DNA from: Cliona cf. orientalis
Taxonomy: Eukaryota; Porifera; Demospongiae; Clionaida; Clionaidae
NCBI GenBank assembly: GCA_963930775.1
Contig: OZ005689.1
Span: 18,313,775 to 18,377,774 of the forward strand
Direction: 5' to 3'
Length of the DNA stretch: 64,000 nucleotides
The notes below the pieces were generated by a model. That model saw only the letters and a list, made by a program, of their open reading frames with translations, was not told the DNA's origin and did no database searches. Below are positions 12,694-27,117 of this stretch, in pieces. Both the position numbers and the translations under genes were made by a program. Within the stretch, counting starts at the first letter, position 1. Each line of letters begins with the position of its first letter.

Positions 12694-13000
12694 GTTTAAA
12701 CGAGCATGTGTTGAATAAATATTCCGTACGTACGCGTTACTTTCGCGAATCGCGATCAATGAGGGCGGAGTATAAAAGGGGGGTGGTCAGGCCGGAAGTT
12801 CTTGCCCATGCACATAAATATGGCGGATGAATTTCAAATTCAAAACTAGTCCAGAATGCCCGCGATTCTCTGTCTTTCGAGGCTACACAACACGCAAGCG
12901 CAACAGGATCGGACACGCTGTTAGCTTAGACACGTGTTTACTCCAGCCACATGCACACAAACCAGAAGTCCTTCAACCGTCCTGTCACGCTGCCGCTAGT

Positions 13001-13773
13001 ATGGCCTCATCAGCTGACAAGAGAGTGATTACAGTAAGATATTCATAGCAGTACTATCATATAACCAAGAACAATAATATAAACATAACACAAAACTACT
13101 AAAACTAGGTGAAAGTAGAATATACACACACTCCTCCTCAAGTTTTTGTATCGCGTGTGAACCGTATGGTCCATGAAAGCCAGCTGCCTGCTTTGACGGT
13201 TCAACTGAGATGGGTACGTCTCGAGGAGGATGAGCCACCATCCACTGACAATGAGACCCAGCAGCAGGGTAGCACAGGTAGCTACATGTACAAACTCAGT
13301 AAAAATATACTCAAATATATGACACTTTAGGTGTTACCTTTCCGAGTCACCCCGAAGGCTATCGGCAGTCAAGCAGTTGTCCGATTCTTCGTGGCAGGAA
13401 TAATTGCCCCAACTGTTTGTGTTCCCCTTGCGTCATTGCGTTTCCCCCTGACTTCCTGCGCGGCGCCTGCAGTCCCCATCCGGCGAATGATGAGAAGCGG
13501 TACAGATTATACAAAGCGTTTTGGAAGTTGCTCAACACTCTCGGCGTCTTCCAGGATGAGGAGTACCTCCTGAGAAAGGAGCGGAGAACTATAAGGGCAG
13601 ACAAGAGGGAAATAATTCCGAAATGTGTCATTACAGTAAGCAAGGATTGCACTGTATCAAATAGGTAATATAATGTTTCTGTCTATAGGAAATCAGAAGA
13701 AGATATCCTAGCCATGATGGCGAATATAAAGATTATATGTCTACTTTCGAAGCTGAAAGTGCACTTGATTAAA
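13001..13773 (+). CDS. Element-encoded Cys-rich protein resembling the P2X7 C-terminal domain
   Basis: A four-exon model reads through without a stop. Exon 1 runs from the ATG at 13001 to a gtaaga donor at 13034. Exon 2 starts after the tag at about 13108 and ends at 13267 or 13277. Exon 3 runs from about 13330 to 13633 (gtaagc donor). Exon 4 runs from 13690 to the TAA at 13771-13773, giving about 200 residues. Exon 3 encodes a cysteine cluster C-x8-C-x2-C-x-C-x2-C (within RGRNNCPNCLCSPC), then KRYRLYKAFWKLL and REIIPKCVIT. Exon 4 continues EIRRRYPSHDGEYKDYM. The last part resembles the intracellular C-terminus of P2X7-type receptors, a domain that occurs without the channel in many invertebrate proteins. 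No membrane segment is seen. It is probably the accessory, DNA- or metal-binding protein of this transposon. The family call is from memory and tentative. Confidence 0.55.
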
Positions 13774-13794
13774 TTTAAGCAAGAGATATAATTA

Positions 13795-13985
13795 TGGTAG
13801 TCACCGGGGAAACTGCTGGGGGAGACACACAATAAGAATATCATAACACTGTAATGGGGGGGGGGACACACAATACGAATAATATTATCATAGCACGGGG
13901 GGGGGGGGGGCAAAATACGAATATCATAATAATATAGCACGGGGGGGGGGGGGGGGGGGGGGAATACGAATATCATAGCACTATC
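13795..13985. repeat. Poly-G minisatellite (G-quadruplex-prone)
   Basis: About four units of roughly 42 bp are each built of a G run followed by an a/c-aatacgaatatcata block and atagcac. The G runs lengthen from left to right: about 11 (13856-13866), 14 (13897-13910), then about 22 (13941-13962). It lies in the 3' gap between the two convergent genes of the 12.7-kb element. On the minus strand this is a C-rich tract. Confidence 0.85.
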
Positions 13986-14177
13986 CTGTGTGGATGAGAT
14001 CAGCAATACTGTCCTGTGGGCAAGGAGGTCGGTATGGACTCAGTGAGAAAGTGAGATCAGTGCACATACATTATAACATAAACCTAAACAGCAACAAAAG
14101 TATATGCAAGTGGAGCCAGTAACACCATATCAGTCAGTGACATAATATTATACATACATGTAGTCTTGTGAAATTGC

Positions 14178-16688
14178 TTAGTCGTCATCCGATTCTGCCT
14201 CGGATAAAAGTGTGCCATCGTCAACTTCTCCATCTAGGTCACCAGTCTCCTCATCTTCAGTCTCCTCATCTTCAATCTCTCTGAAGATAAAAAACAATTT
14301 TCACATATATAAAGTATAGGATGATGTACGATACATACCTGATGTCGGGTTTGTTGTCATCAACATATGCTGTCCACACAAGCTCAACAAACTTGAACGT
14401 CTTCTCCACTAGGACCTTCATAGGTGTACACCTGTCTGGTCGTCGAAGGTCTTTCACCTTGTGTACACTGGTATGAGTGCGATTCACATTCTCATTCTGC
14501 ATAATTTACAACGATATAGATATAAAGATACAAACAGCATAAATCATGCATCTGACCCAGTCCATCACTGCGAGGTTCATTCTCATATTGAACACCCTGG
14601 TGGAAAAGTGAATCCGCTTCGGTAAGTATGTGAGCAGCTGGTGGTTGAAACTCTCCACCCAGTAAGTGTCGCGACACTGTATACATGTAATATAAGCTAA
14701 ATATTGCAAGAGGACTGACTGTGAAAACCATACATACCCGACAGAAGTCATCGGCATAGCGGTACACGTAGGTGTCCTTCAAACCTTTGAGCAGTGCCTG
14801 ACATGCTTGAGGGTTAGTGAGCTCCAGCCTACTGGGAATGTATCCAGGATCATGACATGACGAACTTGGATGGCAGTCAGAGTGGATTCCCTGTAAGTAA
14901 ATATATATACGTGAACAGCTTCCATATTGTATGACGTAGGACGAACGACTGCTAATACCATATAATGGTTGGGTATGTTGAGAATGAGCTTGCGGAGAGC
15001 ATCTGAACATCCACCACAGTTTTTCATGGCCCAGTAGAGATGAATTTTAATACTTCTTCCTGAAAAAGTACACTACATTATCCACATAACTACACAGTAC
15101 ATACAAGTGGCATACGTTTATCCGTAAGCTCAGTAAACCATGTCACATCACGATCTCTTACTCTGCCCTTGGTGATTTTGGCGAGCTCCTTGGCAACATT
15201 CTTGGTTCCTACACACAATGGTGTAGTCGCATCAATTCAAATATAAAGTATACCATCCATTTCGTACCATGCCATGTGTCAAAGGAGTTGAGGAGCTTGA
15301 GATCTTGCTTCACATAGCGTCCAACAGCAAGCTGCATATCATGTGCAATCTCAACGATTTTCAAACCTGGATGGACATACACAAATTTTATACACATACA
15401 CACAACACATTATAGTATACATCACATTGTATATAACCTACCTCGAGCAATGACTTGGGGCACAACTACCTTAGTGCATTCAAGTTCACGAGTTTGGGCC
15501 ACATGATGTTCACTTCGCGAAATGGTAGAAATGCCAACAATCTTCATGGTACTGTATGTACATAGGGTACAATAGAAACAATTAGTATTGTCAATGAAAA
15601 GCATTGTCACCTTCCAGAAAGGCAAGGCACAGTGGTGTGGTAGGCATTAGCAGTTGAGTCATGTCTGGCGTCAGTGATGACCCACTGTGAACATAGAACA
15701 TCACTCATTCGTATACATGTACATGTACGTTTATACAAACCTCTCCCTTTGTTACATAGTCTGGGAGGGTCTCCACCTCTTCCACTGCTTTCTTCATGAA
15801 TTGCTTGGCCAAACGATCCACTATGCCAATGTACCCACGGCGATTGTATACTGAAATGTTATTGAATTCTTGAAATAAACCAATGTATATGCATGACAAT
15901 TACCTTGTCTGATGTAGCCATGTCCAACACTGCCCATGCCTGAAAACTTGGAAAAGTTGATGTACTGAGTAGGCAACACACCAGCGCAAGTGAAACCATG
16001 AACCAACCTACAACACAAACGGTAATATAACCACTCTACTCGACACTAAAATTTACTTCTGATTAGCTAAGTAGAGCCCACTGAGTACTCTTGAACTTGA
16101 CCATGTCCTCTTTTGCCGATGGCAACGGCGGCAAGAGAACAGCACACGCAACACATGACCTTTCTATGGGACAAGAAGATCATGACAAACAGCTTGCTAT
16201 ACTTGACGCTACAATATTGTAACCTGTTTGATAGACTCCACAGCCCATGGCTTTATTGTCAGCCCACAGGGACATGGGGAGGAGAGTCCTTCAACCAGGT
16301 CAGAAAAACAGCACTCTTCGGTCACAAACAATGCTTGGTCTTCCTGGTGCTCATCACTTACATACACTCCTATGTGATGCATACACACTTGAACATAGCT
16401 ATCATATATAGTCTGCACATACTCAGCCTTACCACTGTTTCGTAGAAAGCTCCTTGTTTCCACGCGCTCATTACCCGGGAAATTGTCCTGTGGTCTCGCA
16501 TTCCGTTCTACCGCATCCAACAAGGCGCATAACACACCGTGATTGTCTAGAGTGGGGGCTCCTACGGGTTGTAGGAGCTTGCAAACGGCCTCAAATCGAC
16601 GCTCAAAGGCTTCCTTCTCCTCGTAAGTCGAGAAAGTCGCTTGTAGAGTGAAGCGATGACGCTTTCGGGAGGAATTAGAACTCGACAT
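14178..16688 (-). CDS. Multi-exon DDE-like transposase of an unnamed metazoan family
   Basis: The start is the ATG at 16686-16688 (MSSSNSSRKRHRF) and the stop is the TAA at 14178-14180 after an acidic tail (EDEETGDLDGEVDDG to ESDDD). About a dozen exons with GT-AG borders can be followed. In order they include ECCFSDLVEGLSSPCPCGL, GLVHGFTCAGVLPTQYINFSK, GYIGIVDRLAKQFMKKAV, WVITDARHDSTANAYHTTV, TMKIVGISTISRSEHH, GLKIVEIAHDMQLAVGRYV, LLNSFDTWHGTK, WAMKNCGGCSDALRKLIL, DTYWVESFNHQLLTYLPKR, and MNLAVMDWNENVNRTH. Conserved Asp (ITDARHD), Asp (AHDMQ) and Glu (WVESFNH) are plausible catalytic acids, by analogy with DDE enzymes. I recall similar predicted proteins in fish, lancelets and cnidarians but cannot name the superfamily. 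No stop was seen inside the exons I followed, so this copy may be intact. Confidence 0.6.
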
Positions 16689-16921
16689 AATATCACAGAT
16701 CAGCTTCGAAACAAATAATATGCAAACACGTGCAAAAAGTTCTATTTGGAGCGCTCTTGCTTTTATTCGCGTTTTTGACAGTTGTTAGTGTGTGTCTATG
16801 GGTGTAAAAGTGCGAAAACGGTCACTTGGCAGAAGGCAGCCATTTTGTAAGTTCAAAATTTTAGCGAATGACATTTTTTGGCCTGACCACGCCCCTTTTA
16901 TACGGCGCATGCTCGTTTAAC

Positions 16922-19799: not shown

Positions 19800-22199
19800 G
19801 GTAGACACAGTGTTCAAAGAAATCTTGTGACTTTTGCGAAGGCTCGCCCGGCCCGCACAGATGATTTTAATCACCATTAGTTTATAGTTTTCTGAGACAT
19901 TTATCCACCCACGTTCTTTACGGTACTTAGCGCATAAACCTCGATCTATATAGCCAGCCACACACACACACACACACTTACTTACCTGATCTGAAGGTTT
20001 GAACTCTGACCTCGTTCACGTGGAAGGACCGAACGATATGCACACGCGCATGCACAGATGGACAGGGGAGGGGCTGGATTATAATACGCATGCGCATTTG
20101 GCAGGGGGTGGGGCTGAAAGCATTACCTTTGACCTTAAATCTGGCGAAAGGCGGGATATGCGAAACAGAGTTAATTAGACTGATTAGAGTGCTAAAAATT
20201 CTCAGAAAAGGGTAAGCAGCTAAATTTGAATTATATCAGCGTTTTTTGGGCCAATTTGCCGTTATATCGACCCACGTAATTTACGGTACCTTAAAATGAA
20301 GTACTTCTGGCAAAGTATGAAGGCCATTCGTAGCTGTGGATTTACTAGCTAGCTGTGTGCGCTGTTTGGTATGAGCTACGTTTGTGAAAAGGTCAGTTTA
20401 CCTTTGTTGTAGAAAGTGTAATTTTGAAGGCTCTGTACTGCGCTGTGCAGGTTGTGATAAGCTTTTATACATTTTAATTTGACACCTTAGGCCATACTAA
20501 TTTTAGTAAGCATACCCCAATCTCTAATCAGGCTTAGCCCTGGTATGCCCTGGCCTGCAGCTGCCTAAGACTGTTGACTGTATAGCTTTTTAACGTGAGT
20601 AAAATTTGATATCACAATGATTATAACGGAGAGGGTATTCTATTATTATAATCATTTCACAGATTGCCAGACACAGTCATTGAAAGATTACATCTATAAG
20701 GCTAGGCAAACTTGATTTAATGTTTCTCATCAGCCAGTTTCAGGATTTAAGAGTGGACAGGTGGTCATTGGTCATCATTAATTTTGCTCTTCGGTAAGAT
20801 GTTAAAGCTATGCGCATACGCAGAACCACTCCCACAGGGCAATAAAGGGGCGTGCCTCACAGTTGAAGGCAATGATGAAAGTTGAAGCAGGTGTCTGAAG
20901 TAGGGCACCGGCACTGATGAGAAACAAGGAATCAACTTTTGCCTGGCCTAATGTTACAGTGTAACACAATGTCATTAATTATTTTTATTCCCCAATCAAG
21001 AGTATAGCTACCGTATAGCTGGAAATTTGGCAGTTTGGTGGCCTGATTTGCAACTGCTAAATTAAAAGCGGCCAATATTTCTTACTCATGTATGGCAGCA
21101 TAATGGGCAATTTATTGGGGATTTAGGTACGTGCACTTCTTGAGGATTTAATTGGAATGTGAAACTTGGTGTAGAATGACGTTAAAATCTTTCATAAATA
21201 TATTATTGTTTTGATAAGGTGCAACAGACGAAGTAAAGTGCCCCATTTTATCCTATCAAGACTGAATATCAGTCATGCACGTGCCTTCTCCACATGGAGA
21301 TCATACCCACATCTACATACAGTAACCTATAAGTGTATACAGTAACCTATAAGTGTAAATAGAAACTGAAGCCACAGATTGAGTCTACTTTTACTGTAGA
21401 GCTCGAAGCAATAATCACAGGCTTTACAGATATCTTTGGACCGCCATTGTCAATGAAGAGCTTCAATGAGCCATGATAATGGTGCTGCCGATCCTTTTGC
21501 TGTCGCTGGGTTGATTTATTTGACAGTGATCCTCGGGAATCAGGGAGGCCAAAGAATTTTACCTTCAGTGGTCGAGTCATCTTATTAACACTGGCTTTTG
21601 ATCGTCTGATCAGCACAGCTATCTAGCTGCATTCATAATAATATCATGGTTCTTATTTTCGTGGCACCCAACCTATCAATAACAAAAACATGAAACTTTG
21701 CACATAATACAGTATTTTGTAAGCAAGGGTATACTAAGTAGGGTGGATGGCGTCCATGAAAGCACCTATAGCTATGCCCTTCAATCCAACTTCTCATAGG
21801 CGTAGGAACAAGTTGAAGGTTGAGGGGGCCATAAATATAATTGTGAAAGAAAATTTTTTACCATACCCACCTTTTGTTCAAACCACGCCCATTTTTGCAC
21901 CCATCAAGGCTGTTTGGATAGGCGGGCAAGATTCTTGGCTGTAGCCTCTTGCCCTGTAAGGACTGTAGCTACAACGATCACCAAATTTTTTTGTACTGCA
22001 TGATTCATTCAGTGTTTCTATAAATGGTGTGGGTCATTTGCAGTTGTATTGAAACCACTCATGTTTCTCATCAAGAGCTGAGTTACCAAATAATGTAATA
22101 TCTCTTGAACAAAATAATTTTGGCGAAGCTCATGCACACAATATCATTAAAGCCTAAAAGGAAACACTATGATGTTAGTTTCATTAGGTACAAACAAGG
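19800..22199. other. Non-coding stretch with MITE fragments
   Basis: I see no recognisable gene. An (AC)n tract lies at 19962-19976. A truncated end of the MITE family at 41577 occurs at 21009 (taccgtatagctggaaattt). A minus-strand open frame at 21347-21616 shows no motif I know. From about 21785 to 21950 lies a repeat (cataggcgtaggaacaag, then caaaccacgcccattttt) that recurs in diverged form at 50690-50830. Confidence 0.45.
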
Positions 22200-22341: not shown

Positions 22342-24593
22342 GCTACATACAATAAATTATGTGATAGGTAGTACTGTGGATAATAATTTACATGTACGTG
22401 CTTGGACAGAATACTATCCCATAAACTTATTAAAGGTGGGTAGTTTAAATAAAACTTTGCCAGTTCTAATAGTGCAATAATACTCAGAGGTCTATAGTCA
22501 CAGATCAGTGACAGAACTGGCTGGTAAACTGACTAGTTCTATTAACTTGCTTCTCCCCCTTGTATGTTCGAGTACTATCTATGGTGACATGATGCTGCCA
22601 TCAGTAACTGGCTCCTGAGCAAAAATGTAAATCAGTAGATCTCGAGTTCTAGGCACCTGTGCATGCTGTAAGCACGAGCCAGTAGCTTTCGGTGGTTTCT
22701 GTATGCTTTAAATGCTTTAAATTGCTGAACATGACTGACAGGCACTACAAATCGTGCACTTTCTGTTCAGCATGCCTATGGTTTACTGATTGCACCCACT
22801 CAGTTTGCTATCATGCATGTGCTGATGTGTGCATTCTCCAACCTCAATGTAGGTAAGGGTTGCCAAATCATAAAGTGCGTATAGCTCAGCTCTGAATGGA
22901 ATGTTTCAATGCTAGCTATACGATGCTACAATGGCTGCACGGGGTATGTGCTCAAGAGCTATGTAAAACATGCAAATTGTCATTCTCATCTCTGCCAGGG
23001 CTACTTTATTGAGTGTAGTTCCATGTTTGTTCGCGTGGTCGAGGTCCTTCCTGCTGAGAGATGAGTAAGCACATGTTAATGACGAAGGTAGCGTCGGATG
23101 TTTAACCTAAAAGAACTTGAGCAGTGACATTGATTCCTGACAAACGATTCTGTTTTACACTGCAAGGAATAAATCTAATTTTGCTGAATTCGCACTGCTC
23201 TCGTTCACATGCGCATGCGCACACGTAGTCATTACGTCATAAAAATACATTATTATTTTTAATATTGGCAAATTTTAATTTGGCGATTTTCTTCAAAATT
23301 CGCCAAATCGCCAAATTAAAAACCTCGCCAAAGTTTCCCGTTATACAGTATACGGTGAATATATGGCGCCATTTGATGAACGAAAATATTGTCACGAAAA
23401 TTTCTAACAAACATTTCATGAATTACGGTACCGTAGGTTGGGTTTTCAATGATTGCAAATTACAAGTTCCTTCAGTGTATTACAATTATGCAATACGGGG
23501 TCGACCATCGCAATTATTGTTGTCTTCTGAATGTACATGTGTATCCATGGTAGCTGTACCCACGGGATATAAAAATAGTTATATCAGACGCGAGGGACGT
23601 ATGGCATTTATAGTCAATTTCGAATGTGTTTGAATGTGCGTGTGCGTGGACACGCTGCGTACCAATGTGTGAAGAAGCTGGCCATTCATGCAAGTTCCTA
23701 AAATTATAATTATAAATTTGTCAGAATGATCCACTAGGAGGCATAAATTGCGTGAAGTTGGTGACCTCCCACATCAGGCGCGTAGCCAGGATTTTAGGTA
23801 AGGGGGTGCTGGAGTACGCACGCGAAGCGCGCGCGCAAAATTTTAAGCCACGCCCACTTATTAACCGTCAAGGTCGAAGTTCAAATTGTCATAGAGAACG
23901 CGTTCTGAATGTAGCTAGCGAACTAGCTCAAGGTTTTCGGCCGAATCTTGGGATGAGATAAGTTTCTAACTATCTTCTAAGCTGTTTTTGTAGTAGATGA
24001 TAGTTTGGAGTAGCCAAGGGGGTGCTGGATGAGGCTGTTCTATGGACTATGTGAAGGCTAGGCATGACTAGGCCAAGAGCAGAGGGGGGTGCTCGAGCCC
24101 CCTGAGCACCCCCCCTGCCTACGCCACTGCACATGCTCCCACGTACTAATGCATGCATGTTCAAATGCAGCTGAAATTGACTGTACTGCACTCACCCGAG
24201 GGTGCGAAGATCACACTCTGCAATAACATGTATTGGTATAATACTTGGTAATTTTCAAGGGGGAAATACCTGGGTGCCCCCTCTACCTGCTGGGTGTGTA
24301 TGTTATAATGCTCAGTTCAAAGATAGGGCAGGCCCACAAAAGCCTTACAAAAATTATGATTTCCCGGTGTGAAGTACGTCCGGGTGAAAGATTGACTCTC
24401 CTCCGTGATGTAGGTTAGTAGTGTTCTGACAGTATATGCTGAACCTGGATTGCAATGCTTGTGGGAAGCAAATAAAAATGTTAATCACCTGCAAGCACTT
24501 CCTATATGGCTCACACCATCCGAGTATGCATATGCACAGTACAGCTCACGTGAAAGGTTGTGAAAGGTAAACGCTACAGACACGTTTTGCATT
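22342..24593. other. Non-coding stretch with MITE remnants
   Basis: I see no supported gene. At about 23262-23352 there is an imperfect hairpin made of aattttaatttggcgatttt and its complement. At 23426 an unpaired end, taccgtaggttgggttttca, belongs to the family of the MITE at 35726. A hAT-like MITE (listed separately) lies at about 23775-24128. Confidence 0.45.
23775..24128. mobile_element. hAT-like MITE (degenerate)
   Basis: The left end reads caggcgcgtagccaggattt then gggggtgctgg. The right end, on the opposite strand, reads cagtggcgtaggcagggggg then gtgctc. CAGTGGCGTAGCC-type ends are common among metazoan hAT MITEs. The ends are diverged and no clean 8-bp duplication is visible. Internal copies of agggggtgct suggest a rearranged or tandem structure. 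Confidence 0.5.
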
Positions 24594-24866
24594 GGGATCG
24601 ACTAAGTTCACCCCGTTTGAAACGGTTACGTCATTGGTCCCACCCACTTCACGCGGCGCAGCGCATCGTTGGCCGCCGCTAGAACTTGCACTCTGAACCA
24701 CCCATAACAAAGAAGTCAGAGCTAGAGCTAGGGAAGGTCGTGTCTGTCTGTTTGTGCCATGGCCTGAAGAAGAGGTAGTAGTACAGCAGGGATGTTCACG
24801 CCTGGAGGAGCTTGGATTGTTCCCATGTAGCAGACCTACTGCAAAGGTACGTGCACTCATCTTTGG

Positions 24867-26094: not shown

Positions 26095-27117
26095 TATTTG
26101 TGTATGTGTGTGTGCATACATTGTTGTACATGTAGCAATTGGCTATTCAGAATGTTTGTCCTTAGTTCCCAATGTTTTAGTTTAACGCACCCTCCGTAAG
26201 CAAATATTGAATTCTGTAGTAATATTTCCCCTTTGTACAGGACATATTTGGCAAAGAATGAACATCAAAGTGACTATTTTCTATTTTATACTATGTTTTT
26301 ACATTATTTTAATTTGTGTGTCTGTACTGATAATATTCTCTTTTCCACCGACAATGTATTTCCAGACCTAGCCTTATGAATTGACCTGGGTACAAGGCTA
26401 TTCCACACCTGGATTTTGATGGTCTACTGTACGTGTGTACCATAGCTAGTCACGTTGCCTTTGCATGTGATGAGAGCAGCTCATCAAGGTATCCCATCCT
26501 TCATAGCAGGTACCATTCCATTCAAGTCCCTTGACACAGTGACATATGTAACTACCAGTCAAATCAATTAGTATAATTGTTTCTATATAGCTTCAAAGTT
26601 CCATAGTTTCGTACAGTGAAGATGTGTACACAAGGGAGAGCTGAATGTCGATATGCAATCTGCACCTCTACAAGTACTTTCACTATCAATTTTAATAAAG
26701 ATGACTCAGCTCTTGAGCCTGGGTACGAGGCTAATGAGTGCACGTACCTTTGCAGTAGGTCTGCTACATGGAACAATCCAAGCTCCTCCTGACGTGAACA
26801 TCCCTGCTGTACTACTACGTATTCTTCAGCCTTCAGGCCATGGCACAGACAGACACGTGGCCTCTAGCTCTAGCTTCATGCTGTGATTAATTTTAATGGG
26901 TGGTTTAGAGTGCAAGTACTAGCGGACGAGGCCAACGATGCGCTGCGCCGTGTAAAGTGCTAGTGGGTGGGACCAATGACGTAACCGTTTCAAACGGGGT
27001 GAACTTAGTCGATCCCGTTTTGCATTACCTCTAGACGCTGTATTCTTGCATCAACTTATTTTGCTATTGTGGTTATGTAATGCTGTAAGCCACATGCTAC
27101 ATGTAAGTACACCTTGC

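Follow-up and report, generated by a model that had tools for sequence, protein, structure and literature searches.

A probable Kolobok-type DNA transposon with a divergent KolX gene in the sponge Cliona cf. orientalis

We analysed a 64,000-nucleotide (nt) stretch of the genome of the boring sponge Cliona cf. orientalis (contig OZ005689.1, positions 18,313,775 to 18,377,774; hereafter the window) and describe here a transposon within it that is bounded by TTAA and carries a transposase gene and a second gene encoding a small cysteine-rich protein. With a probability of about 0.88, it is an autonomous, cut-and-paste-type Kolobok DNA transposon of a sublineage related to Kol0, which inserts into TTAA and carries a divergent KolX. 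We class it as a divergent Kol0 relative and not as an ordinary Kol0 element because its ends read AC..GT and its KolX is divergent.

As described in the parts of the study by Kojima & Bao (2022, PMC9587614) on which we draw, Kolobok/Kol0 elements duplicate TTAA and encode a D-D-(C/D)xxH-E transposase together with KolX, a protein that has seven conserved zinc cysteines and resembles the C-terminal part (residues 476–595) of P2X7. Kolobok termini are given there (section 3) as 5'-RR and YY-3', nearly all Kolobok lineages have a zinc finger between C/DxxH and E, and Kol0 occurs in sponges among other animals. The initial annotation of the window, made from the sequence alone, had recognized an apparently intact two-gene DNA transposon, which is borne out by the two open frames of the window copy and by 18 sister copies. 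It had placed the element in no named superfamily and had itself named such a placement as the finding that would overturn this view. The TTAA duplication, the D-D-DxWH-E order and KolX now correspond to the Kolobok/Kol0 description in that source (PMC9587614), and the transposase shares homology with its counterpart in L062, a Kol0-type element of the same genome. The two-protein Kolobok kind thus has a name already; what appears to differ from it, as judged by sequence comparison, is the AC..GT ends and much of KolX.

Recent spread and TTAA target duplication

The genome assembly (216.8 Mb, 149 contigs) was queried with the left 307 bp of the element. This sequence occurs at 23 places, 19 of which, including the window, are near-complete matches, giving 18 further copies. 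The 19 copies are 99.1–100.0% identical to one another with gap columns excluded; by BLAST, the window copy is 97.5–98.6% identical to the 13 sister copies that align in one piece. This family has spread recently. The exact end word is present at 40 sites in the genome, of which 35, by our own count, are ends of the 19 copies, and it is absent from a reversed control; these exact-word counts, which leave out degenerate ends, do not point to a sizeable pool of short derivatives.

Both reading frames are open in 10 of the 19 copies. The transposase is open with all 24 splice-site dinucleotides in 12 of 19 (590–599 codons including the stop); in L011 the frame is open and the splice-site letters are lost, and the sequence of L014 is too short for scoring. 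KolX is open in 16 of 19, the exceptions being L009, L020 and L024. Differences within the family are too few for selection to be read from them.

At the left end, TTAA adjoins ACGAGCATG in 18 of the 19 copies, L023 having TGCA instead. At the right end, in a tally made without L014, TTAA is present in all 16 copies located by the exact end word and also in L017, whose end has one altered base, and, by the end-word search, in L024. For 16 of the 19 copies (all except L014, L017 and L024), we joined the flanks by one TTAA and queried the genome with the product, taking the best 40 matches per query. One undisturbed site each was fetched for L010, L011, L013, L021 and L026, and in all five the flanks match (scores 120–124 of 124) and enclose just one TTAA; an empty site of the window copy itself was not among the 40 matches listed. 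As the five empty sites hold one TTAA and filled sites hold two, insertion duplicates 4 bp, TTAA. The initial annotation had put the element at 12694–16921, which is right to within 2 bp, and had proposed a search for further copies and for the duplication length, to which the 18 copies and the 4-bp TTAA are the answer.

Some surroundings of the copies may be recorded here. Copy L010 (C14:7145760 to 7150206) lies inside a stretch that, by eye, resembles in reverse a retroelement CCHC zinc-knuckle coding region, and repeats at window positions 20192–20295, 24593–24641 and 26969–27016 resemble the flanks of copies L016 and L023. The end word also occurs in both arms of a near-perfect palindrome on contig C16 (L027:277-10000; arms of about 4.75 kb, 98.8% identity). 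The ends in it that look like terminal inverted repeats (C16:5182038/5190237) were rejected as a further element, since they belong to the palindrome and neither protein finds a match there at E up to 1e-3; the outcome for L028 was the same.

The transposase

The minus-strand gene is read as 13 exons encoding 598 amino acids (aa), with all 12 introns GT-AG and no internal stop, in keeping with the dozen or so exons followed earlier. The motifs singled out at that stage are present, ITDARHD at residues 265–271, AHDMQ at 331–335 and WVESFNH at 478–484, and yield the order D267, D333, DTWH (353–356), E480, which aligns with the same motifs of L062. The sequence HSDCHPSSSCH at residues 424–434, which may represent the Kolobok-type zinc finger between DxxH and E, is partly conserved in a second family of this genome (family 2, locus L059).

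L059 has counterparts to all 13 exons in the same order at 45–92% identity, the exon 1 match spanning 88 of 155 residues. Over 509 codons, the proportions of synonymous (pS) and nonsynonymous (pN) differences between the two are 0.78 and 0.26 (pN/pS 0.33), the L059 reading passing over one apparent stop. The intron number, earlier called unusual for a transposase, is indeed high, yet it is common to family 2. A phmmer search of the PDB with the transposase returned nothing useful.

KolX

The plus-strand gene has four predicted exons, encodes 196 aa and converges with the transposase gene. Its exons 2–4 are matched in L059 with a pN/pS of 0.31 (152 codons); for exon 2 the match covers residues 10–35 of 56 only (38% identity), and exon 1 has no tblastn match in L059. 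An exon 2 start at 13143 was rejected, since the frame of exon 1 would then be unmatched, and the acceptor at 13109 fits. Taken with the ratio for the transposase, these codon comparisons indicate protein-level selection on both genes.

The resemblance to the P2X7 C-terminal domain reported initially for this gene was seen correctly, and it is a resemblance of the tail. P2RX7_C is the sole Pfam match of KolX, and in the IPxCx4IRxxYPx5Y stretch, which spans exon 3 into exon 4, KolX follows the third cysteine motif of P2X7 as printed in the part of Rump et al. (2020, PMC7016195) used here, if not at every position. The P2X7 ballast/ZCD and nanor-like proteins of that source thus share with KolX a largely present third motif (IPxC, IRxxYP, Y) and a CxCxxC cluster, but the second printed ballast motif (LCCRx3GxCITT) is not recognizable in the window protein, which moreover is not joined to a channel. 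KolX of the window has seven cysteines, and L056 has cysteines in the same seven alignment columns. Across six relatives four of the columns are invariant and a fifth is kept in five of the six; family 2 keeps five.

A profile of the six relatives aligns with the KolX of L062 along a 28-residue stretch (E=4.4e-5, versus 0.025 for the best of 20 shuffles) and nowhere outside this tail. Against the PDB the same profile gave two chance-level matches only. In viral contigs, queried with KolX exon 3 and not with the transposase, no confirmed relatives were found.

Relation to Kol0 and other transposons

L062, the second best of the 28 P2RX7_C matches in the genome, is by its sequence an ordinary Kol0-type element. 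It is bounded by TTAA, has the termini 5'-AG..CT-3' and an inverted repeat that is perfect over 26 bp, and contains a KolX frame of 281 aa that scores 90.2 bits to P2RX7_C, is convergent with a transposase and has cysteines that fit all three printed motifs by eye. The window transposase, aligned to a concatenation of the open pieces of the L062 transposase (splice sites unmapped), is 22% identical over 268 aa (BLASTP, E=7e-9), from the first D to past the E; hhalign gives E=5.9e-7, the best of 20 shuffles reaching 0.01. The two elements share TTAA, opposite-strand convergent genes and a homologous transposase, and they differ in the low transposase identity, in the termini and in KolX, which in L062 is canonical; the cysteine spacing of the window KolX departs from the canonical one. 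Compared with Kol0 at large (Kolobok-1_XT type), the window element has the TTAA duplication, a DDE (Asp-Asp-Glu) transposase with DxWH and KolX as second gene, but ends in AC..GT, not RR..YY, and has a KolX that is canonical-like in the tail only.

Several observations weigh against the placement in Kolobok. The 5'-AC..GT-3' termini do not obey the RR..YY rule, and family 2 likewise starts with AC, as does the single available end of locus L061. P2RX7_C matches KolX at E=2.6e-4 and 21.4 bits, just below the cut-off of 23.5, over residues 157–184 only, and no P2X7 chain was found in the PDB with KolX (phmmer) or with the six-member profile. Besides the unmapped splice sites of the L062 transposase, eight of its nine pieces, pooled, matched no Pfam family. 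The transposase of the window itself matches PF20700, 'Mutator-like transposase', above the cut-off (30.3 bits versus 26.5; best stretch, residues 353–433), and the L059 reading does so with 42.2 bits.

The last of these points would fit membership of MuDR, since Pfam labels the best-matching domain as Mutator-like; the match runs from DxxH onward, and C/DxxH is common to MuDR and Kolobok, as well as to hAT, P and Dada (PMC9587614). We nevertheless consider a MuDR origin improbable, given that the transposase is homologous, from D to E, to that of L062, an element with canonical KolX and with TTAA at its ends, and that the target duplication is the 4-bp TTAA. Target duplications of MuDR elements are 8–10 bp.

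The TTAA target is likewise what a piggyBac-type transposon that had acquired a KolX-like gene would show, an origin to which a statement in section 12 of Kojima & Bao (PMC9587614) and the confinement of the KolX resemblance to the C-terminal part lend something. The homology of the transposase to that of the Kol0-type L062, its match to PF20700 and the lack of any piggyBac model among its Pfam matches at E up to 1 make this origin scarcely credible. A KolobokP element, for which terminal direct repeats of about 450 or 660 bp and a His-Me nuclease would be expected, was considered and set aside: no long terminal direct repeat is listed in the window element, and its second gene has no Pfam match other than P2RX7_C.

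Within Kolobok, the element may be an ordinary Kol0 whose ends and KolX have drifted within the lineage. The gene pair, convergent layout and TTAA are as in L062, and seven cysteines are present as printed (PMC9587614), in the same columns in L056. On the other hand, the AC start is common to the window family, family 2 and L061, all of them strongly diverged, only four cysteines are invariant among the six relatives, the second cysteine motif is not recognizable, KolX finds no match in L062 beyond the 28-residue tail, and the transposases are only 22% identical; drift within Kol0 therefore seems to us rather doubtful. We tentatively give somewhat more credence, still short of an even chance, to a reading in which the AC-ended elements constitute a Kolobok lineage in its own right, the sister group of Kol0. 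Their asymmetric ends would then be conserved, and their KolX would have had its cysteine region remodelled while remaining under selection as the constant partner of the transposase.

A literature search for Kolobok with KolX, P2X7, sponge, Cliona and TTAA, covering titles and the starts of abstracts, found no description of the element; an entry in Repbase only may exist.

Element ends and a model of transposition

The inner block of the terminal inverted repeats can be read directly from the sequence with the 23 of 24 matches counted earlier, and extends to 29 nt at 90% match. Within it lies TATAAAAG, which resembles a TATA box, points inward and starts 71 bp (left) or 14 bp (right) from the tip. 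The corresponding distances in L059 are 72 and 14 bp, so that in both families the left distance exceeds the right by 57–58 bp. Features are listed in Table 1.

Table 1. Features of the transposon, in window coordinates.
Feature	Position	Strand	Remarks
Whole transposon	12700..16916	no strand	4,217 bp without target duplications; 18 sister copies
Left TTAA target duplication	12696..12699	no strand	adjoins ACGAGCATG end
Left end	12700..12793	+	outer ACGAGCATG, 56 bp left-specific spacer, inner inverted block 12765-12793
TATAAAAG, TATA-box-like, toward KolX	12771..12778	+	putative promoter element
KolX exon 1	13001..13033	+	33 nt; same length and donor in family 2 (by eye); predicted start codon
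KolX exon 2	13109..13277	+	acceptor picked by frame; least certain exon
KolX exon 3	13331..13635	+	CxxCxCxxC cluster; 65.7% identical in L059, E=3.6e-49
KolX exon 4	13689..13772	+	ends in TAA
G-rich repeat tract between tails of both genes	13810..13965	no strand	repeat family D1
Transposase gene, 13 exons	14178..16688	-	1,797 nt, 598 aa plus stop
Transposase exons 1-5	16688-16224, 16163-16057, 16007-15904, 15850-15741, 15684-15611	-	
Transposase exons 6-9	15551-15442, 15366-15268, 15208-15116, 15059-14959	-	
Transposase exons 10-13	14890-14738, 14676-14557, 14496-14339, 14280-14178	-	
Exon 5, first catalytic D candidate	15611..15684	-	ITDARHD, D267; 91.7% identical in L059
Exon 7, second catalytic D candidate	15268..15366	-	AHDMQ, D333; DTWH 353-356
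Exon 11, catalytic E candidate	14557..14676	-	WVESFNH, E480; 92.3% identical in L059
Right end	16880..16916	-	outer ACGAGCATG abutting inner block directly
TATAAAAG, TATA-box-like, toward transposase	16895..16902	-	putative promoter element
Right TTAA target duplication	16917..16920	no strand	TTAA in right ends of sister copies

We propose the following model. The minus-strand gene would encode a DDE transposase whose candidate triad is D267, D333 and E480 and which also has DTWH and, ahead of the E, a stretch rich in Cys and His. This enzyme would recognize the ACGAGCATG ends and the inner block and insert the element into TTAA, which is duplicated, presumably by a cut-and-paste and not a copy-out route. 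The product of the plus-strand gene, a divergent KolX, is a small Cys-rich protein that probably binds zinc and most likely acts as a cofactor or regulator of transposition. Because an inward-pointing TATA box is present at each end, the ends probably double as promoters, the left for KolX and the right for the transposase; more speculatively, transposase bound to the inner block could repress its own promoter.

Being intact, very recent and multi-copy, with a partner gene under selection, the element lends itself in practice to asking whether transposition requires KolX. It also suggests that the RR..YY end rule for Kolobok, as printed (PMC9587614), does not cover every relative. KolX-type proteins are regarded as the likely source of the cytoplasmic ballast domain of P2X7 (PMC9587614, section 16).

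The G-rich tract between the two genes (window 13810–13965) consists of four imperfect 48-nt units bearing long G runs.

KolX and transposase genes across the genome

The genome contains 125 KolX-like matches at E up to 0.1, counted at exon level and with the window family included. Among the matches listed, 15 distinct places outside the window family, counted by eye, have a transposase match, and at 14 of these a KolX match lies no more than 4 kb away (one of them weak, E=0.099). The two genes are convergent at 13 of the 14 paired places listed. At C1:23388421, the exception to pairing, the transposase match has no KolX among the matches listed. In the related family represented by L061 (L061:597-3499, C10:3048496 onward), KolX is not tail to tail with the transposase gene but lies within it, antisense in the intron between the counterparts of exons 9 and 10. 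Related families in this genome thus retain the pairing of KolX with the transposase.

ZCD genes number fewer than 10 per species in the part of Rump et al. (2020, PMC7016195) consulted. The matches to P2RX7_C (ballast/ZCD) in the present genome, 28 as stated above, include C17:5815083, C2:4155587 and C8:3437727, and at least one of them, L062, lies inside a Kol0-type element.

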